Source of the DNA: Crocinitomicaceae bacterium TMED16
GTDB taxonomy: Bacteria; Bacteroidota; Bacteroidia; Flavobacteriales_D; Crocinitomicaceae
Assembly (NCBI GenBank): GCA_002167775.1
Contig: NHBV01000011.1
Span: forward strand, 36,599-75,357
Reading direction: 5' to 3'
DNA: 38,759 nucleotides
Both the position numbers and the translations under genes were made by a program. Position 1 is the first letter of the stretch; each line of letters starts with the position of its first letter. A model generated the notes under the pieces. It was not told the origin of the DNA. It saw only the letters and a program-made list of their open reading frames with translations, and searched no databases. Below, in pieces: positions 3,991 to 31,523 of the stretch.

Positions 3991-6183
3991 ATGAAGATTA
4001 CATTATTTCTCCTAACATTTTCCTTTTTAATTGTCAGTTCTGTCAGCGCTCAAAATAAAAGAGTATTTGACCCGAAGAATGCGCGTGATGGAGAGACGGT
4101 GGAATATTGTCATCAGCATATTAAAATGCAGGAGCTCAGAAAAGATGAGCACTTTATACTGCACAATGCGGCAGGAGAAGCAGAGGCAGAGGCAGAGGTT
4201 CAAAAGAAACTCAAAGAGCCCATGGAAAAGGATGTGGTTTATACGATACCAATCGTATTCCATGTGCTTCATAATGAAGGGGCAGAGAATATTTCAGATG
4301 AGCAAATTTACGATGCATTGTTTTTACTAAATAGAGATTTTAGTCTCGGTAATGCCGATGCGGCCAACGTTCACCCTGATTTTCAAGGCATGCCAGCAAA
4401 CTCAGAAATTGAATTTGTTTTGGCAACAAAGGCTCCAAATGGTGTTTGCTTCAAGGGAATCACGAGAACGGCTTCCGTTCTTAGTGTTCAAGGAGAGGAT
4501 GGAGGAGATCAGATCAATGCCATTGTTTCCGGAAATAATGTTTACAATGGGTCATGGCCGGGCAATAGATATCTTAACGTTTTTGTCTGTGGGGATATTG
4601 GAGGTGCTGCAGGATACACCTATAATCCCGGAAACTGGAATGCAAATAGCATGGGGAATGGAATATGGCTCCTGCACAATTATACAGGCTCAATAGGAAC
4701 GAGTTCTGTCGGTACAAGCCGAACGCTTACGCACGAAGTAGGCCACTGGTTAAACTTGAGCCATACTTGGGGTGGCGATAACAATCCAAACGTTTCTACA
4801 AGTTGTGGTCAGGATGATGGTGTTCAAGATACCCCGTTGTGTATCGGCGTTACTTCTTGTAACATGAACTCTAATGGTTGTAGTGGGGATAATGGCTACT
4901 GGGGTTTTGATATTCGGGATAATGTTGAGAATTATATGGATTACTCCTACTGCTCAAAAATGTTTACAGAAGGGCAAAAAACAAGAATGCGCGCGGCGCT
5001 TCAAGTGCAAAGCACAGGAAGAAAAAATTTGTGGCAAACAAGTAATCTTAATGCAACGGGGGCAACTGGTGTTTTGGTGCTGTGTAAGGCTCAGTTTGAA
5101 GCAGATAGAACAACACTTTGCGCGGGAGATGAAATACAATTTACAGATGACTCATACAATGCAGTCTCAACTTGGGATTGGTCTATATCACCAGCTACAG
5201 GTTGGTCTTTATCCAATGGTACTGACCTCTCTTCTCAGAATCCAAGCATCGTATTTTCGGATGAGGGATTATATACGATAACCCTTACTGCTTCTGACGG
5301 TTCTAGTACTGATGTGGAAACTAAGAATAATTATATTAGGGTATTGCCATCTGCAGCAGGACTGCCATTTTGGGAAGGTTTCGAGGAATACTCCTCTCTA
5401 CAAAACTTGACCAATTGGGAGGTTGTAAACGTAAATAACAACAACGCGTTTACATTAGAGTCAAGCTTTGGTTATTCAGGAACAAAATGTGTTAGGTTGC
5501 CTAATTTTGGTCAGCAAGGATCGAATGTAGATGAACTAATTTCTCAGTCTATCGATGTCTCTTCAGTGCCCGAGACAGAAGATATCACATTAAGCTTTCG
5601 ATACGCATACCGCAAGAGAACATCTTCTGACTATGAGCTTTTAAAGGTTTTTGTTTCAAATAATTGTGGGGATTCATGGTCTCAGAAAAAAACCTTGGGA
5701 GGTAGTCAATTGGGTTCCACTGCATCTAATTCAAGTTGGTACCCAACATCATTGAACGATTGGAAAACGGTGCACATGGTGAATATTAATGAGTCGTATT
5801 ATACGCCTACCTTTAGAATGAAATTTAGGTTTGAAGGTGAGGGTGGGAATAATTTTTATCTGGATGACATTAATCTATACCAAGGCGATCCTTCAGATGA
5901 TCTTGTCACGGGATTATTCGATAGTCCTCAAATGTTGGGCTTGACTGTATATCCCAATCCAGCTGAAGCAGAACTGTCGGTAGATTTTGATTTGAGTTCA
6001 AATCAATTGCTCAAGATTGAAATAGTTGATCTTCTTGGTAAAGTTGTTGGTGCTTATGGTTTGCAAGGGAATGAGGGCAAAAACACTGTGCTTTTAAATA
6101 CGCAGTCTCTTTCTAACGGGACTTATATACTTCAGTTGACTAGTGAGACAATTTCGTCTTCGATGCCGTTTGTAAAACTATAG
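3991..6183 (+). CDS. Secreted M43-family (cytophagalysin-like) zinc metalloprotease with PKD domain and T9SS sorting domain
   Basis: This is a 730-residue secreted endopeptidase. A signal peptide (MKITLFLLTFSFLIVSSVSAQ) precedes a propeptide-like stretch. The protease domain (~80-345) contains the zinc site THEVGHWLNLSHTW, with His248, Glu249, His252 and His258, and a Met-turn NYMDYSY (Met316), which is the metzincin M43B pattern. Paired cysteines occur around 272-321. A PKD-like Ig domain (~365-452, ending GLYTITLTASDG) and a MAM/jelly-roll-like domain (~455-635, with FWEGFEE and DDINLYQGD) follow. The last ~85 residues form a type A T9SS sorting domain (VYPNPAEAELSV, IVDLLGKVV, LSNGTYILQL), so the protein should pass through the T9SS and be released or anchored at the surface. 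The stop interlocks with that of convergent uvrC. No strong promoter box was found; TATTTTAG at 3941-3948 is one mismatch away. Confidence 0.92.
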   Translation: MKITLFLLTFSFLIVSSVSAQNKRVFDPKNARDGETVEYCHQHIKMQELRKDEHFILHNAAGEAEAEAEVQKKLKEPMEKDVVYTIPIVFHVLHNEGAENISDEQIYDALFLLNRDFSLGNADAANVHPDFQGMPANSEIEFVLATKAPNGVCFKGITRTASVLSVQGEDGGDQINAIVSGNNVYNGSWPGNRYLNVFVCGDIGGAAGYTYNPGNWNANSMGNGIWLLHNYTGSIGTSSVGTSRTLTHEVGHWLNLSHTWGGDNNPNVSTSCGQDDGVQDTPLCIGVTSCNMNSNGCSGDNGYWGFDIRDNVENYMDYSYCSKMFTEGQKTRMRAALQVQSTGRKNLWQTSNLNATGATGVLVLCKAQFEADRTTLCAGDEIQFTDDSYNAVSTWDWSISPATGWSLSNGTDLSSQNPSIVFSDEGLYTITLTASDGSSTDVETKNNYIRVLPSAAGLPFWEGFEEYSSLQNLTNWEVVNVNNNNAFTLESSFGYSGTKCVRLPNFGQQGSNVDELISQSIDVSSVPETEDITLSFRYAYRKRTSSDYELLKVFVSNNCGDSWSQKKTLGGSQLGSTASNSSWYPTSLNDWKTVHMVNINESYYTPTFRMKFRFEGEGGNNFYLDDINLYQGDPSDDLVTGLFDSPQMLGLTVYPNPAEAELSVDFDLSSNQLLKIEIVDLLGKVVGAYGLQGNEGKNTVLLNTQSLSNGTYILQLTSETISSSMPFVKL
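4181..4198 (+). repeat. Hexanucleotide microrepeat inside the M43 protease propeptide
   Basis: Three tandem GCAGAG units encode alternating Ala-Glu (part of AEAEAEV, residues ~64-70). The unit is in frame, so slippage would change only the length of a charged linker in the likely propeptide. Confidence 0.7.
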
Positions 6184-10346: not shown

Positions 10347-13300
10347 ATGGTTCGTAAAATATTATTTATTTCCCTAAGTATCTTGTTAACAGGTTTTTAT
10401 GGGTTTGCACAAGGTGGTCTTGGTACCTTGAAAGGTTCAGTTAAGGACGGTGAAAGTGGTGAGCCTTTGCCATTTAGTAAAGTCCTCATTAAGCAGAATG
10501 GAACCATTAAAGGTGGTAAAAACACTGATATAGATGGTAAATTCCAGATCAATGCTATCCAGCCGGGTTCATATACTGTTGAGCTTCGTGCTACTGGATA
10601 CCAAACACAAGCCGTAGAAGGAGTGGTTATTTCTTCAGATAAAATTACATTCTTAGATGACTTAGAAATGGTTAAGCCGAAAGACGTCCAAGAATTGGGT
10701 GAAGTAACGGTGATTAAATATGTTGTTCCCCTTATTGACAAGGATGGGGGTGCATCCGGTAAAACAGTAACAAGAGAGGATATTTCGCGATTGCCTGTTA
10801 GGTCGGCAGCTGGAGTAGCAGGAACCGTAGGTGGTGTAAATGCAAATGAAAGCTCTGGAGCATTGTCTGTAAGAGGTTCACGTTCTGATGCGACATACTA
10901 CTATATTGATGGTATTAAAGTCCGTGGTTCATCAAATCTTCCTAAGTCAGCACTTCAAGAAGTCGCAGTAATTACAGGTGGTGTACCCGCCAATTACGGT
11001 GACGTTACAGGTGGTATTATATCAATTACGACTCGAGGTCCTTCAAAAACTTATTTTGGAAGCTTCGAGGCAGTTTCTTCAGGTTTTTATATCAACGGAG
11101 AAGATCCGGATGGTTATGACGGTAAAGTTTATGGTTTAGATAAATTTGGTTACAACCTATTCGAGGGTATGTTATCAGGACCTTTACTTATGAGACGGGA
11201 TTCATTAGGAAACAAAACAAATCCAATTCTAGGATTTTTGATTTCGGCAAACTTTTCTGACCGACTAGATGCACGTCCCCTCGCAGGTGGAACCTATCGT
11301 ATTAAGAAAGATGTTCGTGATGATCTATTAGAGAATCCATTGCGTCCGACCTCTACAGGTTTTGGTACTTTTCACAATGCACTGTTTTTAAGAGAGTCTG
11401 ATTTTGAGAAGACTCCTTGGAGAATGAATGCACGAGCAATGACAGTTGCTGGTCAAGCCAAGATTGATGTAAATACAGGGCCTAGTGTGAATCTTCAGTT
11501 TGGTGGTTCTTTGAATTATAGTAACGGCTCAAGCTATTCTTATACAGGCTCCTTGTTGAATTTTGGGAATTTTGGTGTCTCTGAATCTCTTGACTACAGA
11601 GTCTTTGGACGATTTACGCAAAGATTCACCAATGAAAGAGAAGGAAGTAGCTCAAAAATCAAATCTGCCAACTACAATTTAATGGTTGATTACTCGAAGT
11701 CAAGAAGAGATGTATACGATCCAAAGCATCAGTACAACATTTTCAATTATGGTCATGTGGGTCGTTTTCAAACCTCACGAACTCCATCATACGAGTTTAA
11801 TCCAATTACCAATACATATGTGCACAATGGATTTAGAGATTTAGAGGTTGCCTTCACGCCTTCTGAAACAAATGCCGCTTTGGCAGCGATTACAAGTCAG
11901 TACTATGATATCTATGCAGATGATCCAGACGGCCATTATGAAAATTTATTTCAGATTCAGCAGGGTAATGCGCTTAGAAATGGAGATGCACCGGGGAGTG
12001 TTTACAGTATTTGGAGCAACATAGGTTCTCCTTATAATTATTTCGGTAAAACAGAAAATGATCAGTTTAGGGTAACGGGTGCAGGATCCGTTATTATAGG
12101 AGATCATTCGATTTCTTTAGGTTTTGAGTATGAGCAGCGTGTTGACCGCGGTTGGACATCAGGTACAACGACGGGTGGAGGGACACAAGGGCCTTTGGGT
12201 ATATGGACGATTGCGAGACAACTTGCGAACTTTCACATAACGGAGCTTGATTTAAATTCAGGTGTGATTTCGGATTCAGGTTCATTCAAAGCAATTACCT
12301 ATGAGAGGTTAAATTCAGGTTATGCAGCACAGTCTGGAACAGGAGAGTATGGGGGTCAATTAAATGACGATAACCAATCTTTCTTTGATTTTAACTTGAG
12401 AAACAAGCTTGGTTTGGATGTGGCAGGAAATGATTTCATAGATATTGATAATTATGACCCGAACTTATTCCAGTTTGACATGTTTTCGCCGGACGAATTG
12501 TTAAATAGTGGAAATTCCTTTGTTTCCTATTGGGGATTTGACCATACGGGTCAGAAGGTAAAGGGCGCTACTGATATCAACAAGTATTTCAATGAGTTTG
12601 ATGAAAATGGAAATTATAAAAGATTTGTAGGTGCATTCCAACCAATTTATATGGCAGGATACATCATGGATAAGTTTGCATTTAAAGATATTGTTTTCAA
12701 TGTTGGTTTGAGAGTAGATGTATTTGACGCCAACCAACCGGTTCTTAAAGATCCTTGGCTGTTTTATAATGCGAGAACAGTTAGTGAAGCTCAAGCCTTG
12801 AAAGAGTCAGATCCTGACCAATATGCATGGGTGAATTTACCTGAAGGTATGGGAGATGACTATGTAGTATATGTTAACGACGTGAACAGCCCATCTGCGA
12901 TAAATGGTTTCCGAACTGGTCAAGAATGGTACAATGCTGATGGAACGCCAATAGAAGATCCTTCAGTATTGCAAGGTGCTGCGGGTATCGCTCCATGGCT
13001 CTTGAATCCAGGGCAAGAAACTCCGGATGCAAGCGCATTTGAAGATTATAAAGCACAAGTAAACTTTATGCCTAGGGTTGCTTTCTCTTTCCCAATTTCA
13101 GATGAAGCTTCATTCTTTGCACATTACGATATACTTACGAAGCGTCCTACTTCTGGTTTTAGATTTGACCCATTTGAGTATCAATTCATTCAATCACGAA
13201 GCTCAATCATTAGCAACTCTAACTTGAAACCTGAAACGACAGTAGATTATGCCTTAGGTTTCCAGCAGGTTTTAACGAGAACATCAGCACTTAAAATTGA

Positions 13301-14126
13301 GGCGTTCTATAGAGAACAAAGAAATAATGTTCAATTAATCAATGTTTTCCAAGCGCACCCTGCAACCTACAAAACATTTGGAAACCGTGACTTTGGTACA
13401 ATCAAGGGTCTTACTATTGAGTATGATTTGCGTAGAACCGGTAATATTCGAATGACGGCAAACTATACGCTACAATTCGCGGAAGGAACAGGTTCTGATG
13501 CCACCTCTGCGAGTGCATTGATTAATGCAGGATTACCTAACCTGAGAAATATTTTCCCTTACTCCTATGATCAGCGTCATGCCATCAACGTGACTTTTGA
13601 TTATCGATATGGTTCAGGAAAAGATTATAATGGTCCGAGTATAGGTAAAGTAAATCTATTTGAAAACACGGGTTTGAACCTTATTTCTAACATCTATTCT
13701 GGTTCTCCTTATTCATCGCAGACTTTCATTACCAATGACGCTCAAAGTGGTGCTTTAGTTGCTGGTCTTGATGGTACGCTGAACGGATCGAGACTTCCGT
13801 GGTCTTACAGATTAGATCTTCAATTGGACAAAACAATTAACATAAGCTACGGTGGAAAAGAAAAAGGGGATAAGAAAAAACAAGCGTTTTTGAATATTTA
13901 TGTCAGGGTTACCAATTTATTGAATCAATTTAACCTTCTAGGTGTATATCGTGCAACTGGAAACTGGGATGATGATGGTTTCCTTGCGGCAGCAGCTAGC
14001 CAAACTTCAATTCAGAATCAAATTGATGAGCAGGCATTTAGAGACTACTACATGATGAAGGTACAGAACCCTTACAATATTAGTGCTCCTAGACAAATTC
14101 GTTTAGGACTCAATTTTAACTTTTAA
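10347..14126 (+). CDS. TonB-dependent receptor with N-terminal carboxypeptidase-regulatory-like domain
   Basis: This is a 1259-residue outer-membrane active transporter. After a signal peptide (MVRKILFISLSILLTGFYGFAQ) comes a CarboxypepD_reg beta-sandwich (~27-108: GTLKGSVKDGESGEPLPFSK, GSYTVELRATGYQ). A segment resembling a TonB box follows (ELGEVTVIKYVVPLID), then the plug domain (~140-232: ISRLPVRSAAGVAGTVGGVN, LSVRGSRSDATYYYIDG, GGVPANYGDVTGGIISITTR). The rest is barrel, ending PRQIRLGLNFNF with the C-terminal aromatic expected for BamA recognition. It resembles SusC in layout but no SusD follows. Instead it is followed 38 bases later by a large T9SS-like exported protein and then a PorV-family barrel, apparently one operon. 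The ligand is unknown; it could be a protein, peptide or glycan fragment rather than a siderophore. Confidence 0.9.
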   Translation: MVRKILFISLSILLTGFYGFAQGGLGTLKGSVKDGESGEPLPFSKVLIKQNGTIKGGKNTDIDGKFQINAIQPGSYTVELRATGYQTQAVEGVVISSDKITFLDDLEMVKPKDVQELGEVTVIKYVVPLIDKDGGASGKTVTREDISRLPVRSAAGVAGTVGGVNANESSGALSVRGSRSDATYYYIDGIKVRGSSNLPKSALQEVAVITGGVPANYGDVTGGIISITTRGPSKTYFGSFEAVSSGFYINGEDPDGYDGKVYGLDKFGYNLFEGMLSGPLLMRRDSLGNKTNPILGFLISANFSDRLDARPLAGGTYRIKKDVRDDLLENPLRPTSTGFGTFHNALFLRESDFEKTPWRMNARAMTVAGQAKIDVNTGPSVNLQFGGSLNYSNGSSYSYTGSLLNFGNFGVSESLDYRVFGRFTQRFTNEREGSSSKIKSANYNLMVDYSKSRRDVYDPKHQYNIFNYGHVGRFQTSRTPSYEFNPITNTYVHNGFRDLEVAFTPSETNAALAAITSQYYDIYADDPDGHYENLFQIQQGNALRNGDAPGSVYSIWSNIGSPYNYFGKTENDQFRVTGAGSVIIGDHSISLGFEYEQRVDRGWTSGTTTGGGTQGPLGIWTIARQLANFHITELDLNSGVISDSGSFKAITYERLNSGYAAQSGTGEYGGQLNDDNQSFFDFNLRNKLGLDVAGNDFIDIDNYDPNLFQFDMFSPDELLNSGNSFVSYWGFDHTGQKVKGATDINKYFNEFDENGNYKRFVGAFQPIYMAGYIMDKFAFKDIVFNVGLRVDVFDANQPVLKDPWLFYNARTVSEAQALKESDPDQYAWVNLPEGMGDDYVVYVNDVNSPSAINGFRTGQEWYNADGTPIEDPSVLQGAAGIAPWLLNPGQETPDASAFEDYKAQVNFMPRVAFSFPISDEASFFAHYDILTKRPTSGFRFDPFEYQFIQSRSSIISNSNLKPETTVDYALGFQQVLTRTSALKIEAFYREQRNNVQLINVFQAHPATYKTFGNRDFGTIKGLTIEYDLRRTGNIRMTANYTLQFAEGTGSDATSASALINAGLPNLRNIFPYSYDQRHAINVTFDYRYGSGKDYNGPSIGKVNLFENTGLNLISNIYSGSPYSSQTFITNDAQSGALVAGLDGTLNGSRLPWSYRLDLQLDKTINISYGGKEKGDKKKQAFLNIYVRVTNLLNQFNLLGVYRATGNWDDDGFLAAAASQTSIQNQIDEQAFRDYYMMKVQNPYNISAPRQIRLGLNFNF

Positions 14127-14164
14127 TAGATTATTTCAACAACACAAGAATAAACGTTACATAT

Positions 14165-17100
14165 ATGAAAAAGCAGTTATTCGCTACATTAATAGGAATA
14201 GGCATGACTATGCCAGCATGGTCATATCTCGGTCCTGACGACAAGAAAGGCTCTTCAGACAACAATCCAAAAGGTGCCAATTGTAGTCCAGCTACAGCCA
14301 AATTAACCCTAGAGTTCAATGATGTTGCGGCATTAATTGAGCAAGGTGGAAGTATGTTTCAGAACAGGACAGATGGTACGGCTGCATATGAGGTTCCAAA
14401 AGGAAGTGGCTTGAATGCAATTTATGCAGGTGCGCTTTGGATGGGTGGTACAGATGTAAATGGTCAGCTGAAGCTTGCTGCACTTCGTTATCGACAAGGG
14501 AATGACTTTTGGCCAGGTCCATTAACGGTAACTCCTGGTACAGGGACTTATAATCCATTGTTCCCGGTAGGAGATGATGCTACGCGTGATTTTGGAGAGG
14601 CAAATATTGACCCGGACCAATGTCAAGCCTATGATAAGATTTACACTATTCGCAAGGCAGAAGTGATCCGCTTCAACATATGGTGGTCTTGTTCAAGTGG
14701 AGAAACAACCGAGGGTTGTGATGACATTACAGAGCCAACCAATGACGAACTTCAACGTATTTATGGATGGCCAGCCCATGGAGACGTATCAAGAGGTCAA
14801 GATTACTTTTTAGCTCCATTCTATGACAGAGATGAGGATGGTAACTATAATCCAGATGCAGGTGACCACCCGTGGTATGATGATATTTTGGGTCGTGATG
14901 ACATCGAATGTGGTATTGACCGTCGTATTTCTTTATTTGGTGATGAGACACACTGGTGGGTGTTCAATGATAAGGGGAATATCCATACAGAAACCAATGG
15001 TGACCCCATTGGAATGGAGATTAGAGCTCAAGCTTTTGCATTTGCTACAAATGATGAGGTGAATAGAATGACATTCTATAACTATGAATTAATTAACAGA
15101 GGTACGCAAACACTATACAATACCTATTTTTCGCAGTATCTAGATGCGGATATTGGAAACTACACGGATGATTATGTGGGGTGTGATGTATCGCGAGGTT
15201 TAGGATATGCCTTGAATGGAGATTTAATTGACCAAGCAGATGGTGGTAAGCCTGGATATGGTGAAAATCCTCCTGCCATCGGTTGTGATTTCTTTGAAGG
15301 TCCTTACCAAGATGCAGACGAATTAGATAACCCCGGTCCTTATTTCAACGAAGAGACGGGGCAAATGGTCGTGCCTTCTGTTACCGATGCATTGGCAAAT
15401 AATGGTATCGTATATAAAGGTGTAGGAATTGGTTATTCAGATAGTATAATTGATAACGAACGTTTTGGAATGAGAAGATTTACGTATTACACGTCAACGT
15501 CAGCGCCACCTTACAATGACCCTTCAAATGCAGCAGAGTATTACAATTTCATGCAGGGGAACTGGGCAAATGGTTCTGATATGTTCTATGGAGGTTTAGG
15601 TTATACTGGTTCTACCGGAGCTTCTACTGTATTGTCTGACTATATGTTCCCAGGTTTGTCTGACCCATTGAATTGGGCGACCGGAGGTGTCGACATGTCA
15701 TCAGCTTTTCCTGACGGATGGTTTGAAAGTACGAACAATAATCCTCCTGCTGACCGTCGATTTGTGCAGTCTGCCGGACCATTTACACTGAGACCAGGAG
15801 CCATAAATAATATTACAGTCGGTATTGTATTCGGAAGATCGACAGATGGAGATTTATATGCTTCAGTAGAAGCGATGAAGCAGGCAGATACGAAAGCTCA
15901 GGCTTTATTTGATGCGTGTTTTAAAATTCTATCTCCACCGGATGCACCAAGATTGACAATCCAAGAATTGGAAAATGAATTAATTCTTACGATTGACAAT
16001 CCATCTTCTTCAAATAATTTTGAAGAAGCCTACGAAGAATTAGACGAAATTAACATCGCGGATCCAACCGTTGATCGATATTACAGATTTGAAGGGTATC
16101 AAATTTATCAATTGAAGGATGTTGAAACTTCTGTTGCGGATATCTCTGACCCTGAAAAGGCTCGATTGGTCGCACAATGTGATATTGAAAATGACATTGA
16201 TAGAATTATAAACTTCGATTTTGATGAGGCATTAGGATTTTCAATTCCTGTAGAGATGGTTGACGGTTCTAATAACGGAATTCGTCATTCATTTAAATTA
16301 ACGGAAGATAAGTTTGCACAAGGTAGTCCTACTTTAGTGAACCACAAGACATACTACTATGTCGCTGTAGCATACGCTTATAATCAATTTAAGGAATATA
16401 ACCCTGAAGACCCTACGCTACTTGATGGGCAAAGAAAACCTTATATTTCTTCTCGTTTGAATTTTGATGGAACGGCAATCAGTAGTACGCCAGCGGTTCC
16501 TCACGCACCAATTCCAGAGGCAGGAGGAACGCTTCAATTGATTGAATACGGTTCATCTCCACAAATCACACGCTTAGATGGTTATGGAAATGGAAATCGT
16601 GAGTTGGAGCTGACACAAGAAAGTGTTGATGAAATTTTAGCTGAAGGATCAATGCTAACGCCAACCTATGATTATGGTAAAGGACCTATAAACGTTAAGG
16701 TAGTTGATCCATTGAATCTGGCGAGCGGTTATTTCGAATGTAAATTTAGAGACTATACGGTTCAGAATTCTGGTAATGCAGCAGATACGGCAAGTTGGGT
16801 GATTTATCGCTATGCTTCTGAAGACGATGTAACACCGCTAGATTCAGCTACATCTCAAAGAACCATTGCGTTTGACAATGAACAGATTGTTCCTGAGTGG
16901 GGTATTTCGGTTCAAATCAAACAAGAAAAATATTTCGTTCCGGCAAGTGGAAATTCAGGAGGACCTGAGACAAAGACAACAACAATGATTTCTTCATCTA
17001 TTAATTTTGCAGATTCTTCAAAGCAATGGTTAACAGGAGTCAATGACAATGACGCTTATTACCCAACAAATTGGGTTATTTGTGGTGAATACGACCCAGA

Positions 17101-18340
17101 TGAGGATACAGAATGTTTGGACGATGGTCCAAGTTATCTGAATCCATGTAACTATCAAGATGAAATCACGAAAGACCAAAGCCCAGTTTGGGAAGGTCTT
17201 CTTGAAGGAATTATTGCACCACATCAATTGGTCGGATACCAAGCTGATTATGCACCAATGGCTTATCTTGGAACCGTAGCTACAAATGTTCGTAAAAACG
17301 CTGCGATTAGCTTTGCACCAAGTGTAGATATTGTATTTACAAGCAATCAAGATTTATGGACGCGTTGCCCAGTATTTGAGACAGGCCGCGATGCAGGTCT
17401 GAACATCGGTGGAGTTGCTGCTGGTAAATTACGAATGAGTCCTAGCGTTGGTAAAGATGGTCTTGAGGACAACTCTGGAACAGGTATGGGATGGTTCCCT
17501 GGTTATGCGATCGATTTGGAGACAGGAGCTAGGTTGTATATGGCATTTGGAGAGAATTCTTTCTTAGGCGGCGAGAATGGTGCCGATATGATTTGGAACC
17601 CAACCTCTAACTTGGTAAGTAACGTTGGTACTCCTTTGATGGGAGGTGTACATCCAATATATGTGTATAGTAAAGATATAAAGACTGTAAATGGATATAG
17701 CCAGTCATATGATTTACCAGCATATAACCCGGTTCAGGCAGAAACCTCTGGAGGTCATCAATTGAAAATTCTTATCGATGCAGCGGAGTCAAGTCCAACG
17801 ACTGCGAATTGCAGACCTATTTATGCAACACTTTCTTGGGTTTGTTACCCTATGTTGGCAGAGGGACAAGAATTACTTTCCACTGATGTTACTATGAAAC
17901 TTCGCATTAATAAGGAATATAAGAACTATGTTGCTTCGGGACAGAATTCTGGAAAACCTATGTATTCGTGGAGTATGGATGATATTGCAACTGTTACAGC
18001 TTCCCAGGATCAATTGAAGGAGGCTTTGGATATAATTAACATCGTGCCAAACCCTTACTATGCCTTCTCTGAATATGAGAGAAATAGATTAGAAACGAAG
18101 GTTAAGATTACAAATCTGCCTGAGCAGTGTACAGTGAAAATTTTCACCGTTAACGGTAAGCTAGTTAGAGAATTCAAGAAAGACAGTCCGATTACTTCAT
18201 TGGATTGGGATTTAACGAATTTCAAAGCTATACCCGTAGCTTCGGGAATTTATTTGATTCATGTCTCCGTTCCTAATGTTGGCGAACGTGTATTGAAATT
18301 CTTTGGAGGAATGAGACAGGTTGATTTACAGGGTATATAA
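14165..18340 (+). CDS. Large exported protein with T9SS-like C-terminal domain, partner of TonB receptor and PorV-like barrel
   Basis: This 1391-residue surface protein has no assignable enzyme activity. A signal peptide (MKKQLFATLIGIGMTMPAWS) is followed by a charged linker and the conserved-looking opening GSMFQNRTDGTAAYEVP and AIYAGALWMGGTDVNGQL. An acidic motif DRDEDGNYNPDAGDHPWYDD (221-240) looks like a Ca-binding loop. GYGENPPAIGCDFFEGPYQD and several aromatic-rich stretches follow. Fibronectin III-like beta segments appear in the middle (VDRYYRFEGYQIYQ; NHKTYYYVAVAYAYNQF). The last 100 residues (1292-1391) resemble a T9SS/FlgD-type Ig domain: IVPNPYYAFSEYE, VKIFTVNGKLVREF, PVASGIYLIHVSVP. 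It ends unusually with a further FFGGMRQVDLQGI. It lies between the receptor and PorV-like genes (38 and 28 bases apart). Export and surface location are inferred; function is unknown. Confidence 0.8.
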   Translation: MKKQLFATLIGIGMTMPAWSYLGPDDKKGSSDNNPKGANCSPATAKLTLEFNDVAALIEQGGSMFQNRTDGTAAYEVPKGSGLNAIYAGALWMGGTDVNGQLKLAALRYRQGNDFWPGPLTVTPGTGTYNPLFPVGDDATRDFGEANIDPDQCQAYDKIYTIRKAEVIRFNIWWSCSSGETTEGCDDITEPTNDELQRIYGWPAHGDVSRGQDYFLAPFYDRDEDGNYNPDAGDHPWYDDILGRDDIECGIDRRISLFGDETHWWVFNDKGNIHTETNGDPIGMEIRAQAFAFATNDEVNRMTFYNYELINRGTQTLYNTYFSQYLDADIGNYTDDYVGCDVSRGLGYALNGDLIDQADGGKPGYGENPPAIGCDFFEGPYQDADELDNPGPYFNEETGQMVVPSVTDALANNGIVYKGVGIGYSDSIIDNERFGMRRFTYYTSTSAPPYNDPSNAAEYYNFMQGNWANGSDMFYGGLGYTGSTGASTVLSDYMFPGLSDPLNWATGGVDMSSAFPDGWFESTNNNPPADRRFVQSAGPFTLRPGAINNITVGIVFGRSTDGDLYASVEAMKQADTKAQALFDACFKILSPPDAPRLTIQELENELILTIDNPSSSNNFEEAYEELDEINIADPTVDRYYRFEGYQIYQLKDVETSVADISDPEKARLVAQCDIENDIDRIINFDFDEALGFSIPVEMVDGSNNGIRHSFKLTEDKFAQGSPTLVNHKTYYYVAVAYAYNQFKEYNPEDPTLLDGQRKPYISSRLNFDGTAISSTPAVPHAPIPEAGGTLQLIEYGSSPQITRLDGYGNGNRELELTQESVDEILAEGSMLTPTYDYGKGPINVKVVDPLNLASGYFECKFRDYTVQNSGNAADTASWVIYRYASEDDVTPLDSATSQRTIAFDNEQIVPEWGISVQIKQEKYFVPASGNSGGPETKTTTMISSSINFADSSKQWLTGVNDNDAYYPTNWVICGEYDPDEDTECLDDGPSYLNPCNYQDEITKDQSPVWEGLLEGIIAPHQLVGYQADYAPMAYLGTVATNVRKNAAISFAPSVDIVFTSNQDLWTRCPVFETGRDAGLNIGGVAAGKLRMSPSVGKDGLEDNSGTGMGWFPGYAIDLETGARLYMAFGENSFLGGENGADMIWNPTSNLVSNVGTPLMGGVHPIYVYSKDIKTVNGYSQSYDLPAYNPVQAETSGGHQLKILIDAAESSPTTANCRPIYATLSWVCYPMLAEGQELLSTDVTMKLRINKEYKNYVASGQNSGKPMYSWSMDDIATVTASQDQLKEALDIINIVPNPYYAFSEYERNRLETKVKITNLPEQCTVKIFTVNGKLVREFKKDSPITSLDWDLTNFKAIPVASGIYLIHVSVPNVGERVLKFFGGMRQVDLQGI

Positions 18341-18368
18341 TTAGATTGGAATAAAGAAATAATTAGTT

Positions 18369-19418
18369 ATGAAGAATAGTATAAAAATTGCATTTGTCCT
18401 TTTGTTTTTGTCTCCTATACTTTTTGCGGGAAACGAGGATAGAGTTGGTTCCGCAGGAGCATCACATTTGTTAATTAATCCATGGGCGAGAAGCTCTGCT
18501 TTAGGTGATGCAGGTATAGCCAGTGCAAATGGATTAGAAGCTTCTTACATGAACATCGCAGGTTTAGCTTTTACGGATCAAACGCAAATGAAGTTCAATT
18601 ACAGCAACTGGATGGGAAGTGCAGGAATCTCTTTTAACTCTGCGGGTATTGCGCAAAGGGTATCTGAATCTAGTGTGATTGCAATAAGCATTCAGTCTAT
18701 GAATTATGGTGACATTCCAATTACGACAGTTGAAAATCCAGAAGGGAATATTGGTTTCTTTTCTCCTAGAACCAACGTCTTCAACATTGGTTATGCTAGA
18801 ACATTCTCTTCAAGTATTTATGGAGGAATTAATTTCAAGGTCATTTCTGAAAACATCTCTAACCTCAAAGCGACGGGTATAGCCATTGATGCTGGTATTC
18901 GCTATGTAACTGGAGAGCAAGAGCAGGTTAAATTTGGAATTACATTGAAAAATGTAGGTCCGGTAATGAAGTACAAAGGTGATGGTCTTGCGCAGCAGGC
19001 GGCTTATGTAACTACTGGCTTTATTGCTTCTCTTGAAGAACGCTCTTCTGCTTTTGAGATGCCATCCTTATTATCTATCGGAGGTTCCTATGATTTCATT
19101 TTGAACGAAAGCAACAAACTAAACCTAGGTTTAGGATTTACAGCAAATTCTTTTTCGAATGACCAATACAGAATAGGATTAGACTATGGAATGACCAATG
19201 AAAGAATGGCATTTAATGTTCGAGGTGGTTATGTTTACGAAAAGAATTTATTGGATGTTGAAAATCGTTCTAACGCTTTGGTTGGTCCTACTGCTGGTTT
19301 TTCAATTGATGCCTTAGTGGGTAAAAGTAAGAACGCCTTAGGCGTTGAATATTGTGCTCGATTTGCGGGTATTTTTGGAACCATACATACTATTGGAGCA
19401 ACGATCAGCTTAAAATAA
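18369..19418 (+). CDS. PorV/PorQ family outer-membrane protein (UPF0164)
   Basis: This is a 349-residue beta-barrel of the FadL-related PorV/PorQ family. PorV is the T9SS shuttle that carries cargo from the translocon to the attachment complex; PorQ and other paralogues have related roles. The signal peptide (MKNSIKIAFVLLFLSPILFAG) is followed by the family signature at the mature N-terminus, GSAGASHLLINPWARSSALG and ASYMNIAGLAF. Alternating strands run to the C-terminus, which ends IHTIGATISLK. It is shorter than canonical PorV. Because it is the third gene of the receptor/large-protein cassette, it may serve that cargo specifically. That is inference; the housekeeping PorV is probably encoded elsewhere. 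A hairpin lies just downstream. Confidence 0.85.
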   Translation: MKNSIKIAFVLLFLSPILFAGNEDRVGSAGASHLLINPWARSSALGDAGIASANGLEASYMNIAGLAFTDQTQMKFNYSNWMGSAGISFNSAGIAQRVSESSVIAISIQSMNYGDIPITTVENPEGNIGFFSPRTNVFNIGYARTFSSSIYGGINFKVISENISNLKATGIAIDAGIRYVTGEQEQVKFGITLKNVGPVMKYKGDGLAQQAAYVTTGFIASLEERSSAFEMPSLLSIGGSYDFILNESNKLNLGLGFTANSFSNDQYRIGLDYGMTNERMAFNVRGGYVYEKNLLDVENRSNALVGPTAGFSIDALVGKSKNALGVEYCARFAGIFGTIHTIGATISLK

Positions 19419-20357: not shown

Positions 20358-22607
20358 CTATTCGAGTTCAAAGTTGGTGTAAAATGTCATCTCTCCTGCG
20401 TAATCTTTTACAGAAATAGTAAATGATATCGATTGGTGACCAGTCATTCCACGAGTATCATAAATTAGGGTTATATCAGTAATTTCGTTTGGAAGTAACT
20501 CTAGTTTTTCACTACTAATCTTTTTAACCGTTGTGTTTTCTGGTAAAGTAATCTTGATTTTTTCGCTAGACGTGTTCTTCACTGAGAATGAATTCGACAA
20601 AACCACTCCACTTTTTTTATTGCCGAGATTCTGAATCAATCCCTCAGCTTTTAACGGTAAAGTTGATTTATCTCTATAAATGTTAATGCGTTCGACCTGA
20701 ATTCTCCGTTCCATTCCTGCTGCTTTAGAAAACACGGATTCATTTTGTGCCAAAGCATCATCACTAATACTTTGGTCAGCAGCATATTCACCAAACGGGA
20801 GATATACAAAGCTTAATATTGGTCGTTTATTATCTAAATAAGGCCGGAATACCCCATTATCAACGGATTTGAAATAGTTAATCAACGATGAGATTCTCCG
20901 TTTGGTAAGATTTACGTTATACGCTGTTTTCGCGATAGGGCTGGCAAATCCTTTAATGCTTAATTCTATTTTTGACCCTGATTTAAGCTCTTTGAGTAAA
21001 ATGGATTTTAACGAGTCCAACATCACGGCGCCGAAATCAACTTGGGCCCCAAAAAATTCTGTGAGGTCTTTTAGATCATTTTCTGCTTGCTCTGTTGAAA
21101 TACCCTTAATTACCTCTGTTTTGTATAAAGGATAGTTCTCTACATATTTCTCATATGTCTCGAGATATGTTTGCTGGGTTGTTGTTTTCAAGGTCCTGGC
21201 GTCCGGTTCATCATTTCTAAAATAGAGTGTAAGAGGCAATAAGGTTTCAATTTTCTTTTCAAGAACCACTGTGTCTTTGATTTCTTCCTGGGTAATGAGC
21301 TCAATTAAAGGGTAGGATGCGTATATATCGCTGCAGCACGTAGGGTTTTTTGAGAAATACCCACCTTTTTTGTTTGATGAGACATAAATGCTATCATGAT
21401 GGCTAAAATAGTAGAGGTCATTGGCAGGACTGTTTATCGGATTCCCCACATTTAATGGGCTTGAGAATAATCCATCTATATAATTACTGAAATGTACGTC
21501 ATGACCACCAAAACCGTCGTGCCATGTAGATGAAAAAAACAATTGATTTCTCGTGGTGTCATAAAACGGAGTGACCTCATTTTCGACCGAATTTACTACA
21601 CCAATATTTGATGCTTCTTTAAAATTTAGCCCATCAATACTTTCAGCATACCATATATCCATTCCTCCAACTCCTCCCTTCCGATTGGAGGCAAAAAACA
21701 ATACCTCATTATCTTTAATTTTAGTAAAGAATGGCATTGTACTGTTTGCTCCTTTTTCATTGATCTCAAAACCCAATGTGTCCGTTACGACCCATGCACT
21801 ATCATTTTTTTGTGCCACAACAATTCTACAATCGTATTTGAAACCGTCATCTTCACAAACACTGAAATAGTATTTTGACCCGTCCAAAGAGAAGCTCCCA
21901 TTTCCATAGTTCAAATTTGCATGAAAAAGGTCAGTATTCATTTCTGATTGTTGAAATTCACCTAAGTCATTTCTGTCACTGTAATATAACTTTGTTCTGT
22001 AGGCCGGATCGTATACCTCTTCCGCATTATTGGAGGAGTCAGCTTTTAACGCTGAGAAAATTAATCGATTGTCTTTAATTGTATGACCAAATTCTGCGTC
22101 ATACGTATTTACTGTTTCCGGAAGGTGAATTAAAGGAGTGAATTCTGACGAGTCTAATCGGTTTTCAATGGCCCATGAACAAGATTCGATTTCTCTTAAA
22201 GATTTGCTGTAAAAAGCACTATTTTTCTTTTTTTCTAGCTTTTTTGCACTCAATTTAAACGTCTTTAAAGCCTGTTGATATCGACCATTCTGTTTTTGCA
22301 TTAAAGCAAGGTTTAATAGACTATTAGGAAAGATGGTTGTTTGCTCGCGGGCATATACTTTTGCATAGTAACTCTCAGCTTCTGAGTAATACTTGTACGC
22401 GCGAAGTGTTTCAGCATATTTCCACAATAACTTGATGGAATTAGAATCTTTCGCTAGTGCTTTCTTGTAATATTCTAATGCATAGTAATAATCTCCTTTA
22501 TCATACTGCTCATCTGCAAAAGCTATAATCTTTTTTAGCTTCTGTTGTGTGTTCCCCAATATGGAGAAACCGATGCAAAAAATGACAACTAAATATAGTC
22601 TGGACAT
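20358..22607 (-). CDS. PorE-like TPR / PD40 propeller / OmpA-type protein
   Basis: This 749-residue envelope protein probably links the outer-membrane T9SS apparatus to peptidoglycan. The signal peptide (LYLVVIFCIGFSILGNTQ) is followed by TPR repeats (~24-125: YDKGDYYYALEYYKKALAKD, YYSEAESYYAKVYA). A PD40-type propeller occupies ~165-430 (FFASNRKGGVGGMDIWYAES; LFFSSTWHDGFGGHDVHFS). An OmpA-like domain spans ~515-660, with IKGFASPIAKTAYNVNLTKR in place of the usual GHTD motif but with the NxxLTxRR tail that contacts peptidoglycan. The C-terminal ~90 residues form an Ig-like, DUF1573-like domain. Its start overlaps the preceding porP-like gene by 19 bases. Known PorE has TPR, propeller, a carboxypeptidase-regulatory domain and OmpA, so this is a variant layout rather than a certain orthologue. 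Confidence 0.8.
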   Translation of the reverse strand: MSRLYLVVIFCIGFSILGNTQQKLKKIIAFADEQYDKGDYYYALEYYKKALAKDSNSIKLLWKYAETLRAYKYYSEAESYYAKVYAREQTTIFPNSLLNLALMQKQNGRYQQALKTFKLSAKKLEKKKNSAFYSKSLREIESCSWAIENRLDSSEFTPLIHLPETVNTYDAEFGHTIKDNRLIFSALKADSSNNAEEVYDPAYRTKLYYSDRNDLGEFQQSEMNTDLFHANLNYGNGSFSLDGSKYYFSVCEDDGFKYDCRIVVAQKNDSAWVVTDTLGFEINEKGANSTMPFFTKIKDNEVLFFASNRKGGVGGMDIWYAESIDGLNFKEASNIGVVNSVENEVTPFYDTTRNQLFFSSTWHDGFGGHDVHFSNYIDGLFSSPLNVGNPINSPANDLYYFSHHDSIYVSSNKKGGYFSKNPTCCSDIYASYPLIELITQEEIKDTVVLEKKIETLLPLTLYFRNDEPDARTLKTTTQQTYLETYEKYVENYPLYKTEVIKGISTEQAENDLKDLTEFFGAQVDFGAVMLDSLKSILLKELKSGSKIELSIKGFASPIAKTAYNVNLTKRRISSLINYFKSVDNGVFRPYLDNKRPILSFVYLPFGEYAADQSISDDALAQNESVFSKAAGMERRIQVERINIYRDKSTLPLKAEGLIQNLGNKKSGVVLSNSFSVKNTSSEKIKITLPENTTVKKISSEKLELLPNEITDITLIYDTRGMTGHQSISFTISVKDYAGEMTFYTNFELE

Positions 22608-23584
22608 ACTCTATGAAGGATTCTTTTGGGTTTGAATTTTTTTATAATATAGCGTACTGCGAATTCTATTCCTCCTCTTGCTTGGCTGGCAGGAATCAGC
22701 TTTGAGAAGTTGATATCGTAACTAATCCCTACAAATAGATCAGCAAAATCATACCCAAAACTAATATATGCGGCATCTCTATTTCGGTACCACAAACCGC
22801 CATAAAGTGCTGCGTAAATCTTTTTAGGGTGGTTTAAGTAATATTTACCCGATGCGCCAATAACAAGCTCTCTATACACGTCCTGGGCGCTATATTGTGC
22901 ACTGGGAATGAGGTCCCATTTTTCATTGAGCTTAAAGGTTCCTTTCACAAAGGAATTACTTCGTATTGCTCTTTTGACCTCTGCATCGTAAAAGCCCTGA
23001 TTTGGTCTGTTTAAATTAAAAGCACTTGTTCCCAATATCACCTTAAACCGCTCATCTCTTCTCCATTCGTATATGAATCCTGCACCCAAGCTAGCATTTG
23101 TCTTTCGGTCATTTTGGTAGCTCTCAAAATTGGGCGCTGAAGGATCAAAAACATATCCAGTGTATTGTGTGTCAAAGTAAAGGGCATCCCAGTTGATCTG
23201 TCTATGGTTCATCCCAAAGTTAATTCCAGGGCGAATAACATGTGTTGAGTCGCTGTCTAATTTGATAGCATAAGACAAATTACCTTGTATTTCAACGGTT
23301 CGAAAGCGACCATCCCCAGCTTGGTCATTGAACATACTTAATCCGAAACCAAGGTTTTTATATTTTGAATCAACAGACAAGGCCATTGTACTAAAGGGTA
23401 CCGTAACACTTCTCCATTGATCTCGATAATTTCCAATGAATCGATAGTCACCATCAAAGTGTCCGGCATTTGCTGGATTTTGAAAAAGTTGATTGTCATT
23501 GTATTGAGACCAATGTATGTCTTGTGCAATTGAAATATTTTCAATTAAAAAAGACAAAAGAACAATCCAGAGAAACTTGTGCAT
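22589..23584 (-). CDS. Type IX secretion membrane protein, PorP/SprF family
   Basis: This is a 331-residue outer-membrane barrel protein of the PorP/SprF family. PorP works with PorK, PorN and PorE in the T9SS envelope complex, and SprF-type paralogues are needed for export of type B cargo such as gliding adhesins. The signal peptide (FLWIVLLSFLIENISIAQ) is followed by the family opening DIHWSQYNDNQLFQNPANAG, then FIGNYRDQWRSV, LGFGLSMFNDQAGDGRF and a C-terminal GGIEFAVRYI. It ends with a basic tail RILHRVCPDYI, characteristic of the family. The gene is upstream of, and overlaps, the PorE-like gene. No large SprB-like adhesin gene is adjacent, so which cargo it serves is not clear. Confidence 0.92.
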   Translation of the reverse strand: MHKFLWIVLLSFLIENISIAQDIHWSQYNDNQLFQNPANAGHFDGDYRFIGNYRDQWRSVTVPFSTMALSVDSKYKNLGFGLSMFNDQAGDGRFRTVEIQGNLSYAIKLDSDSTHVIRPGINFGMNHRQINWDALYFDTQYTGYVFDPSAPNFESYQNDRKTNASLGAGFIYEWRRDERFKVILGTSAFNLNRPNQGFYDAEVKRAIRSNSFVKGTFKLNEKWDLIPSAQYSAQDVYRELVIGASGKYYLNHPKKIYAALYGGLWYRNRDAAYISFGYDFADLFVGISYDINFSKLIPASQARGGIEFAVRYIIKKFKPKRILHRVCPDYI

Positions 23585-25379: not shown

Positions 25380-26456
25380 TTACTCGTCAAATGTTACTAT
25401 TACTTTTTCTGATGTCGGATGTGCTTGACATGTCAATATATAACCCCTATCTAGCTCATCTTGTTCAAGGGAATAATTTACATCCATCTCTACGGAACCA
25501 TCTAAAACTTTGGCTTTACAGGTGCAGCAAACGCCTCCTTTACACGCGTAAGGGACATCTAGACCTGATTTTTGAGCGGTATCGAGTATAGTCTCACCTT
25601 GATTATTTAGCTTGAATTCAAATTCATCTCCGTCCATGTACAGAATCACTGTGCTGTCGTTAGGGTTGGGGGTTGATTTTTTAATTTTTTGTACTTTTTT
25701 ATCATAGTCTGTTCCAAACAACTCCAAATGTATTTGGCTAGATTGAAGCCCTTTGGACAGCATTACCTCTCTGATGTCTAAAGTCATTTTTTCAGGTCCA
25801 CAAATAAATACGTCATCTATCGTGTTTTCTCGGAAATATGCATCCAATAAGCGTATGCATTTTTCTTTGTCAATGCGACCTTTTTGGAGATCATTTCCTA
25901 GGTTTTCTCTTGACAATATATGTACAACACTAAATCTGTGTAAATATTTATTTTTAAGCGCCTCTATTTCTTCCCTAAAAATAATGGTGTGCACACCTTT
26001 ATTTCCATAAACGAGATTGACATTACTATCTGGCTCATGTCGAAGAATACTCTTGACAATCGATAGAATTGGTGTTATACCACTTCCTGCAGCAAAAAGT
26101 ACATAGTTCTTTTTTGCTCCATAATCTGGGATGTGTTGGAAATTCCCTGAGGGAGGCATAACCTCCAATACATCTCCTCTTTTTACATGGTCATGGGCGA
26201 ATGTAGAAAATAAGCCATTCTCAATTTTCTTAATGGCAATTTTGTGCTTGTTTGACGAGGGTTCTGAACACAAAGAATAGGAGCGACGTACCTCTTCATC
26301 CTTGACCTTGGTTTTTAAGGTTAAATATTGGCCAGCTTTAAATGTAAAATCTTGCATGTGTCCCTCAGGAACATCAAAGGAAATTGATATACAATCCTCT
26401 GTTTCTTTTATGATTTCTTTAACCTGAAGTTTATAGAAATTCGTTTTTGTAGCCAT
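25380..26456 (-). CDS. paaE: Phenylacetyl-CoA epoxidase reductase subunit PaaE
   Basis: PaaE feeds electrons from NADPH to the di-iron epoxidase PaaABC. Its 358 residues show FAD-binding RRSYSLCS (57-64), the NADP part LFAAGSGITPILSIVKS (120-136), CGPEKM (219-224) and a C-terminal 2Fe-2S domain with Cys305, Cys310, Cys313 and Cys343 (ACKGGVCCTCKAKVLDG). It is the first gene of the leftward operon, back to back with paaA across 124 bases, which makes it the better candidate for the true epoxidase reductase than the second copy downstream. A TTG-N19-TAAATTTG promoter lies just upstream of its ATG. Confidence 0.88.
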   Translation of the reverse strand: MATKTNFYKLQVKEIIKETEDCISISFDVPEGHMQDFTFKAGQYLTLKTKVKDEEVRRSYSLCSEPSSNKHKIAIKKIENGLFSTFAHDHVKRGDVLEVMPPSGNFQHIPDYGAKKNYVLFAAGSGITPILSIVKSILRHEPDSNVNLVYGNKGVHTIIFREEIEALKNKYLHRFSVVHILSRENLGNDLQKGRIDKEKCIRLLDAYFRENTIDDVFICGPEKMTLDIREVMLSKGLQSSQIHLELFGTDYDKKVQKIKKSTPNPNDSTVILYMDGDEFEFKLNNQGETILDTAQKSGLDVPYACKGGVCCTCKAKVLDGSVEMDVNYSLEQDELDRGYILTCQAHPTSEKVIVTFDE

Positions 26457-26464
26457 TTCAAAGT

Positions 26465-26520
26465 TTGTTCAAATTTAAGCAATCTATTTTTCAAGGCAAG
26501 GTATTCTAAACATTGTTCAA
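26465..26520. promoter_or_regulatory. Two TTGTTCAA direct repeats, candidate paa operator
   Basis: TTGTTCAA occurs at 26465-26472 and again at 26513-26520, 48 bases apart. The first copy overlaps the paaE -7 box; the second partly overlaps an AACATTGTT near-palindrome (26509-26517). They sit between the divergent paa promoters, a natural place for a regulator such as a PaaR/TetR-type repressor. No regulator gene is adjacent, so this is speculative. Confidence 0.3.
26470..26499 (-). promoter_or_regulatory. Promoter of the paaE operon
   Basis: On the minus strand, TTG (26497-26499), a 19-base spacer and TAAATTTG (26470-26477) match the Flavobacterium consensus TTG-N17-23-TAnnTTTG. The box ends 13 bases before the ATG at 26456. 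Confidence 0.6.
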
Positions 26521-26526
26521 TTTCTT

Positions 26527-26561
26527 TTGTTTTTATTCAGTCTCAGTATTGAGTATATTTG
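26527..26561 (+). promoter_or_regulatory. Promoter of paaABCD
   Basis: TTG at 26527-26529 and a perfect -7 box TATATTTG at 26554-26561 are separated by 24 bases, one more than the usual range. The box ends 19 bases before the paaA ATG at 26581. Confidence 0.5.
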
Positions 26562-26580
26562 TAAAATAAACCAGTGAAAA

Positions 26581-27528
26581 ATGATGAAAGTTGACATCCA
26601 AGATTTAGAAAAGAAATTTCAAGACAGAATCGATCAGGATATAAAAATCGAGCCCAATGATTGGATGCCTGATGCCTACAGAAAGACTTTGATTAGGCAG
26701 ATTTCGCAGCACGCACACTCTGAGGTGGTTGGAATGTTACCTGAAGGTAATTGGATTACAAGAGCGCCAAACTTAAGACGTAAGGCTGTTTTATTAGCAA
26801 AGGTTCAAGATGAAGCCGGTCACGGTTTGTATTTGTATAGTGCCGCAGAAACCTTGGGTGCAGATCGAGAACAGACAATTGACGACTTACATTCGGGCAA
26901 AGCTAAATATTCTTCGATTTTTAATTATCCGACCTTGTCTTGGGCGGATATGGGAGCAATTGGATGGCTTGTCGATGGTGCAGCAATCATGAATCAAGTT
27001 CCTCTTTGCAGATGTTCTTATGGTCCATATGCAAGGGCGATGATTCGAGTATGCAAAGAAGAATCTTTTCACCAAAGACAAGGCTTTGAAATCATGACCA
27101 AATTAGCATCAGGAACTACAGAACAAAAAGAAATGGCACAAGATGCCTTGAATAGGTTTTGGTGGCCAGCGCTAATGATGTTTGGTCCAAGCGATGCTGA
27201 TTCAAGCCATACAGAGCAGTCGATGCGCTGGAAGATCAAAAGACATACCAATGACGAATTGCGTCAAATGTTTGTAGACGTAACAGTTCCTCAAGCCGAG
27301 TCTATCGGTTTGACGGTTCCCGATCAAGATATAAAATGGAATGAATCCAAACAGGGTTATGATTATGGTCCGATCGATTGGGATGAGTTTTGGCAGGTAG
27401 TTGGTGGGAACGGGCCTTGCAACAAAGAACGTGTGGAGACTAGAAAAAAAGCAAAGGAAAATGGTAAATGGGTTGTAGAAGCGGCAATGGCATTCACTGA
27501 GAAAAGAAATTCAAAGAAATCTGCGTAG
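26581..27528 (+). CDS. paaA: Phenylacetyl-CoA epoxidase catalytic subunit PaaA
   Basis: PaaA is the di-iron oxygenase subunit that epoxidises the aromatic ring of phenylacetyl-CoA with O2, the key step of aerobic phenylacetate degradation. The 315 residues match the family. Ferritin-like helices carry the ligand motifs: HSEVVGM (Glu48), VQDEAGHG (Glu78, His81) and [12 protein letters not shown] (Glu160/161, His164). [11 protein letters not shown] and [20 protein letters not shown] are further conserved blocks. It opens with a double ATG; the second is equally possible as start. It is the first gene of paaABCD, with the paaB start immediately after its stop. Confidence 0.97.
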
Positions 27529-31497: not shown

Positions 31498-31501
31498 GGT
31501 G

Positions 31502-31509
31502 CAAAAATA
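31502..31509 (-). promoter_or_regulatory. -7 element of the DUF5916 gene (leaderless candidate)
   Basis: On the minus strand this reads TATTTTTG, a perfect TAnnTTTG ending 4 bases before the ATG at 31497. It supports that start over the upstream in-frame ATG at 31518. Confidence 0.55.
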
Positions 31510-31523
31510 GCTTTTCAATTTTA

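Follow-up and report, generated by a model that had tools for sequence, protein, structure and literature searches.

A conserved gene cassette of a TonB-dependent receptor, a large protein with a T9SS-type C-terminal domain and a PorV/PorQ-family barrel in Bacteroidota

Within the T9SS, type A C-terminal domains (CTDs) are reported to be recognised by PorV without exception, and orphan type B cargos of F. johnsoniae share one shuttle in trans (PMC12618676). The CTD of PorZ stays uncut and bound to PorQ (PMC10202324). Outside of this secretion system, the BAM complex of Bacteroidota contains a surface lipoprotein, BamH, that is held by the FadL-family protein BamG (PMC12578637, PMC12611786). 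In the open-licence literature we found no paper describing a cassette such as the one analyzed here, in which the gene for a TonB-dependent receptor is followed by genes for a large exported protein with a T9SS-type CTD and for a barrel of the PorV/PorQ family.

The window, by which we mean the whole stretch of DNA under analysis, comprises 38,759 nucleotides from Crocinitomicaceae bacterium TMED16 (contig NHBV01000011.1, positions 36,599 to 75,357). According to an earlier note on this DNA, a receptor, a large protein and a PorV-like barrel lie in order with gaps of 38 and 28 bases, and both the called open reading frames and the domain models agree with that description. The three genes, referred to here as P1, P2 and P3, all lie on the plus strand, with 38 bp between P1 and P2 and 28 bp between P2 and P3:

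10347-14126, plus strand: P1 open reading frame, 1259 residues, TonB-dependent outer-membrane receptor
14165-18340, plus strand: P2 open reading frame, 1391 residues, large exported protein with a T9SS-type CTD
18369-19418, plus strand: P3 open reading frame, 349 residues, PorV/PorQ-family beta-barrel, probable dedicated paralogue

There are no enzyme or glycan-utilisation genes beside the cassette. A scan for sigma-70 promoters and terminators gave promoter matches at or below chance level, with a consensus that is not applicable to Bacteroidota promoters.

The conservation of the arrangement was analyzed at loci chosen with P2 alone as the query, which are not phylogenetically independent of each other. 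P2 has a match in 100 of 296 genomes drawn from the whole phylum, and the complete, ordered trio is present in 35 of the 39 P2-selected loci, one of which holds two trios; of the remaining four, one ends at a contig end and three encode P2 without partners. The outcome named as refuting in the earlier note, a family whose members usually occur without the receptor or the PorV gene, was therefore not observed. Of 199 genomes sampled within the order, 197 contain P2, with 55 of 55 genera represented, and since it belongs to the core genome of the order, we set aside a reading of P2 as a phage or plasmid gene.

Among close relatives (those with names are MAGs and strains, for the most part under the labels Crocinitomicaceae, Fluviicola, Brumimicrobium and other Flavobacteriales), P1 lies directly before and P3 directly after P2 in 36 of the 50 P2 copies that have enough flanking sequence at either end, while nine copies have no adjacent neighbours and five have P1 only. 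Three of the nine neighbourless copies have a cassette upstream of them at a distance of a few kb. On P1-only contigs such as L039, the next gene after P1 and P2 is the superoxide-dismutase-like one known from the orphan locus, and the 3' end of P2 followed by P3 was recovered at another contig end in five genomes (G008, which corresponds to L039, and G013, G015, G024 and G031), so that repeat-driven assembly breaks or joins explain at least part of the P1-only copies. Loss of P3 in close relatives was also considered, and it is ruled out for the case that was checked (G008) by such a P2-P3 end. The genome of the window itself encodes a second, orphan P2 copy with the same C-terminal tail; P2 is thus not always encoded beside its partners. 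A gene-conversion check of the two P2 copies of a genome found the C-terminal two thirds more alike in some pairs, not uniformly.

We also approached the cassette from the side of the barrel, using 40 loci around PorV-family genes from ten distant genomes outside Bacteroidia, which were chosen without regard to their neighbours and with canonical PorV left out. Under strict rules, 29 of the 40 loci carry a contiguous trio of receptor, CTD protein and PorV-family barrel, and three more trios with overlapping open reading frame calls (L244, L254, L256) bring the total to at least 32 of 40. The co-occurrence of the three families, which the earlier note had proposed to look for in other genomes, is seen with either starting point. 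Among the other loci, L262 has a trio with one gene inserted, four consist of receptor and PorV, one ends at a contig end, L231 is permuted and L261 groups with PorQ. Genetic linkage of the trio is in other words strongly established. The large proteins of the PorV-selected trios mostly bear a remote likeness to P2, which makes the cassette of the window one member of a larger class.

In 14 genomes in which PorV-family genes were counted, the genome of the window has five and those outside Bacteroidia have 8 to 28. No SusD match was obtained in 55 of the 117 non-Bacteroidia genomes having at least seven PorV-family matches, an anticorrelation between SusD and PorV that is only a hint, as the counts per genome are lower bounds (at least seven) and follow phylogeny. 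Several genomes with multiple copies of the trio have no detectable SusD. The cassette system may have replaced SusD in lineages outside Bacteroidia.

The linkage data bear on a narrower reading of the locus, according to which P2 and P3 alone cooperate as cargo and shuttle while the receptor is just co-transcribed. PorZ with PorQ and type B CTD proteins with PorP are precedents for such two-component pairs; against it, the position of the receptor and its tight spacing are retained in the same 35 of 39 loci, and in four PorV-selected loci (L226, L234, L238, L255) it is the receptor and not the CTD protein that directly precedes PorV, so that its linkage is at least as tight as that of the cargo. 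We regard cooperation of P2 and P3 alone as improbable, and lean towards P2 and P1 acting together at the cell surface.

The N-terminal part of P1 contains the following elements:

10425-10646, plus strand: CarboxypepD_reg N-terminal extension, residues 27-100 (PF13620, 50.5 bits, cut-off 32.3)
10701-10721, plus strand: TonB-box-like EVTVIKY, residues 119-125, located by alignment, with a putative TonB-box function
10755-11015, plus strand: plug domain, residues 137-223 (PF07715, 33.9 bits, cut-off 23.9)

Directly after EVTVIKY follows a PLIxKD motif that occurs phylum-wide, the consensus in distant relatives being EVVVxYxxPLIxKD, and a profile of the P1 family returns matches to TonB-dependent transporter (TBDT) structures. 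The SusC/RagA model TIGR04056 gives 45.3 bits with P1, below its cut-off of 368.25 and over the N-terminal part only, and the SusD Pfam domain has no match in P2 at E values up to 1. The resemblance to a SusC/SusD pair pointed out in the earlier note consequently holds as an analogy of layout, but not as an assignment of P1 to SusC or of P2 to SusD.

The CarboxypepD_reg N-terminus followed by a Plug domain is the layout of Oar-type transporters, and P1 might accordingly be a TonB-dependent exporter that moves P2 across the outer membrane, with P3 acting as an anchor only. That the genes for receptor and cargo adjoin in nearly every cassette speaks for such a role. The receptor barrel model PF00593, however, which Oar matches, finds no match in P1 at E values up to 1, and the C-terminus of P2 points to another exit route:

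18035-18298, plus strand: T9SS-type CTD of P2, about residues 1291-1378, ending at the invariant Lys1378
18299-18337, plus strand: P2 C-terminal tail FFGGMRQVDLQGI, 13 residues after Lys1378

The CTD is the sole recognisable domain of P2. It scores 20.7 bits against TIGR04183, just below the cut-off of 23, and the only PDB match of its profile is the CTD of PorZ (5m11, E value 1.9e-4). Lys1378 is invariant in 42 of 42 phylum members, a near-C-terminal lysine as in type A cargo. In type A cargo the chain ends a few residues after this lysine, whereas in P2 it ends exactly 13 residues past it in all 42 phylum members and in 75 of 75 close relatives. Most orphan P2 copies are included in these 75. 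Other cassettes encode CTD proteins with a shorter end, five residues past the lysine in 37 of 38 cases and six in one, and PorU of the same genome likewise ends five residues past its CTD lysine. Neither type B CTD models (TIGR04131/PF13585) nor the PorP/SprF barrel model (TIGR03519) match P2 or P3 at E values up to 1.

SprA is encoded in 228 of the 296 genomes and in 100 of the 100 that contain P2, and P2 occurs in none of the 68 SprA-negative genomes, which largely belong to one family and hence do not amount to 68 independent observations. We consider P2 very likely to be a T9SS cargo. The restriction of P2 to SprA genomes, its T9SS-type CTD with the invariant lysine and the membership of P3 in the T9SS shuttle family all argue against Oar-type export, which we regard as quite improbable.

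P3 belongs to the PorV/PorQ family (NF033709, 149.7 bits, cut-off 90), and its scores stay below the cut-offs for canonical PorV (NF033710, 78.6 bits, cut-off 250), for PorQ (NF033711, 87.5 bits, cut-off 220) and for the PorV2 equivalog. As canonical PorV (381.5 bits), PorQ (251.4 bits) and PorV2 (476.5 bits) are all encoded elsewhere in the same genome, each above its own cut-off, P3 is an additional family member. The best structural match of a P3 orthologue model is PorV in the CTD-bound translocon (8gl6_F, Z 33.6, 4.1 Å, 292 residues); FadL follows with Z about 29 and BamG with Z 24-26. A phylogenetic tree of 97 PorV-family proteins, constructed with FastTree, rooted at midpoint and including one PorQ and one PorV2 reference, unites the canonical PorVs in one clade (support 0.997) and the window-type P3 proteins in another (1.0). 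The barrels of the other cassettes form the sister clade of P3 (0.875), both being joined with a support of 0.941, and the PorQ of the genome pairs with L261 (0.938). The cassette-linked barrels in this FastTree analysis are thus a clade separate from PorV, PorQ and PorV2, which supports, together with the scores, the proposal of the earlier note that P2 has a PorV paralogue of its own.

The length of the tail tracks the barrel clade, with 13 residues after the lysine where the barrel is of the P3 type and five where it belongs to the other cassette clade, and the longer tail of P2 would fit a recognition or retention element. As a docking probe for CTD and P3 we used an artificial read-through fusion from an orthologous locus (L050) in which each stop codon was translated as glycine. 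The resulting model, which comes without an inter-domain error matrix, has a pTM of 0.70, with CTD and barrel each predicted confidently and the tail poorly ordered; this pTM is higher than the value expected with a freely placed CTD and may weakly suggest docking. P3 is in our judgement likely to be the cognate shuttle or anchor of P2.

The part of P2 that precedes the CTD was annotated as follows:

14165-14224, plus strand: predicted Sec signal peptide, read from the sequence, without a lipobox, the first cysteine being residue 40
14282-16144, plus strand: conserved core, about residues 40-660, supersandwich-like (GH94/GH116-type) with insertions, from fold comparison of a model
14825-14866, plus strand: calcium-loop-like DRDEDGNYNPDAGD, residues 221-234, located by alignment, with putative calcium binding
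15254-15304, plus strand: P2 family signature GYGENPPAIGCDFFEGP, residues 364-380, kept across the phylum

The signature, which the earlier note had picked out as conserved-looking, has the phylum-wide consensus YGxxPPAxGxDFFQGP. The calcium-loop-like motif of the earlier note was recovered as a DxDxDG-type loop at residue 221, the conservation of which is looser than that of GYGENPPAIGCDFFEGP, and the Ig/FnIII-like parts that the note had listed as well are only weakly supported, FlgD_ig being matched in 12 of 33 members and fn3 in one of 33. An assignment of P2 to a known domain family was rejected, as the window copy has no match in Pfam and sequence matches in the PDB are confined to the CTD.

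For residues 21-1200 of P2 a structural model of modest quality was obtained (pLDDT 69, pTM 0.53), and fold comparison bears mainly on its residues up to about 746. The first 640 residues of this model superimpose on 8rf9 (VIA-align Z 19.2, rmsd 2.8 Å, 248 aligned residues), and the core shows a tentative supersandwich likeness to GH94/GH116-type proteins and to cyclic glucan synthase, for which Foldseek gives an E value of 2.9e-3 at best. In the predicted secondary structure, no (alpha/alpha)6 catalytic barrel is visible after the putative supersandwich of P2, so binding rather than catalysis is the simpler reading. The GH94/GH116 likeness of the modelled core suggests that the ligand may be a glycan.

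A carbohydrate-binding scaffold, which the P2 core may be, could also belong to an outer-membrane complex with a structural or biogenesis role (as an anchor, a surface layer or a BamG/BamH-like assembly helper), in which P1 would be a signal- or force-transmitting barrel without any part in nutrient import. That nearly every genome of the order has P2 in single copy suggests a housekeeping function rather than a dispensable nutrient system, and the BamG-BamH pair is a precedent (PMC12578637, PMC12611786), the P3 orthologue model being also similar to BamG. Yet the many different cassettes per distant genome are typical of ligand-specific uptake and not of one machine, and P1 retains its plug and TonB-box-like motif. 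We hold a structural or biogenesis complex to be unlikely; for import as the activity of the cassette, we put the chances at about even.

In the route that we infer for import, P2 would cross the inner membrane via Sec and then, guided by its CTD, would likely be exported across the outer membrane by SprA, the T9SS translocon. P3 instead of the general shuttle PorV would take over the CTD with its eight extra tail residues, a hand-over for which we rely on the genetics, the tail and the barrel clade. P3 may then keep P2 on the cell surface without removal of the CTD, in the way that PorQ keeps PorZ (PMC10202324), and P3 could also serve orphan P2 copies in trans, just as one shuttle is shared by orphan type B cargos (PMC12618676). 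Held in this way, P2 would be the ligand-catching surface subunit for P1, as SusD is for SusC, and P1 would by the same analogy import the ligand, probably a glycan or a glycan-bearing molecule, with energy from TonB. For this reading as a whole, a T9SS-exported P2 held by P3 and partnering P1 as a SusD-like subunit for TonB-driven import, we put the chances at about even; the CTD score just below the cut-off, the orphan P2 copies, the near-universal single copy and the lack of enzyme or glycan-utilisation genes beside the cassette count against it.

If it holds, some type A-like T9SS cargo bypasses the common shuttle PorV, and TonB receptors have their cargo sorted and held by dedicated PorV paralogues. 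The many PorV/PorQ-family genes outside Bacteroidia that are so far unexplained would thereby gain a function, the outer-membrane systems for secretion and for uptake would be joined in one assembly, and the additional eight residues of the tail would offer a handle on how a CTD selects its shuttle.

Compared to the known systems, the cassette shares with SusC/SusD (RagA/RagB) a CarboxypepD_reg-bearing TonB receptor encoded beside a large exposed surface subunit, as well as the many paralogous sets in some lineages; P2, however, carries a T9SS CTD instead of a lipobox or SusD domain, and a PorV-type barrel is added. One true SusC with an adjoining SusD is encoded in the genome of the window. 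With PorZ/PorQ the cassette has in common that the CTD of PorZ is the best match of the P2 CTD and that PorQ is a barrel of the same family as P3, but PorZ and PorQ function in the attachment of LPS and lack a neighbouring receptor, the P2 tail is longer and P3 groups apart from PorQ. Type B CTD proteins with PorP/SprF likewise have the gene for a cargo-specific shuttle barrel after that for the cargo (PMC12618676), whereas the CTD of P2 is type A-like and P3 is of the PorV/PorQ and not the PorP/SprF family; given the rule that type A CTDs go to PorV (PMC12618676), the P2/P3 cassette would be an exception.

Oar TonB-dependent transporters share the combination of CarboxypepD_reg, Plug and TonB box (PMC6434023), while P1, unlike the transporter of the Oar/PopC system, has no PF00593 match and is linked to T9SS components. 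BamG/BamH resembles the assembly proposed for the cassette in that a surface protein is kept above a partner barrel by a barrel of the FadL type (PMC12578637, PMC12611786); there, the surface protein is the lipoprotein BamH and its partner is BamA, in contrast to a T9SS CTD protein and a TonB receptor here. We are evenly divided on whether these cassettes constitute a separate, phylum-wide class of uptake machine, composed of a TonB receptor and a T9SS-secreted surface subunit held by a barrel of its own from a dedicated PorV clade, which outside Bacteroidia is multiplied and may take on the role that SusC/SusD pairs have in Bacteroides-like bacteria, and whose one member in the order, part of the core genome, would be the cassette in the window.

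The window's genome (G000) harbours a second copy of P2, the large exported protein of the cassette, located on contig C44 (locus L002), in which ambiguous bases are numerous:

L002, 1058-5110: orphan P2 copy, 65% identity

Beside this orphan copy lie genes for a superoxide-dismutase-like and an MgtE-like protein; like the P2 of the window, it has kept the 13-residue tail. When the loci L039, L045 and L046 are compared against L084, as well as in L112-L118, the two copies behave as repeats, which break MAG contigs inside P2. Contigs with apparent loss of P3, the PorV/PorQ-family barrel, seem to be chimeras produced by these two repeat copies.

A variant layout of the cassette recurs in three genomes (loci L226, L234 and L238), where the gene order is short CTD protein, proteins of ~700 aa and ~510 aa, receptor and PorV.

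The window additionally encodes:

3991-6183, +: metalloprotease-like protein with type A sorting domain
20358-23584, -: PorP/SprF-family barrel and PorE/CHU_0125-like TPR-OmpA protein
25380-27528, divergent: PaaE and PaaA, phenylacetyl-CoA epoxidase
29044-31518, -: 824-aa protein
34893-36332, +: 479-aa protein

The 824-aa and 479-aa proteins gave no NCBIfam match at E-values up to 1e-10. The metalloprotease-like protein, with its clear sorting domain (46.3 bits), is ordinary T9SS cargo. The PorP/SprF-family barrel scores 178.9 bits against a cut-off of 90.55, while the PorE/CHU_0125-like protein, at 145.6 bits, stays below its cut-off; their genes overlap, forming one operon near the P1-P2-P3 cassette. 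No type B cargo was identified adjoining this pair; elsewhere, pairs of PorP/SprF and PorE-like proteins serve to anchor such cargo.
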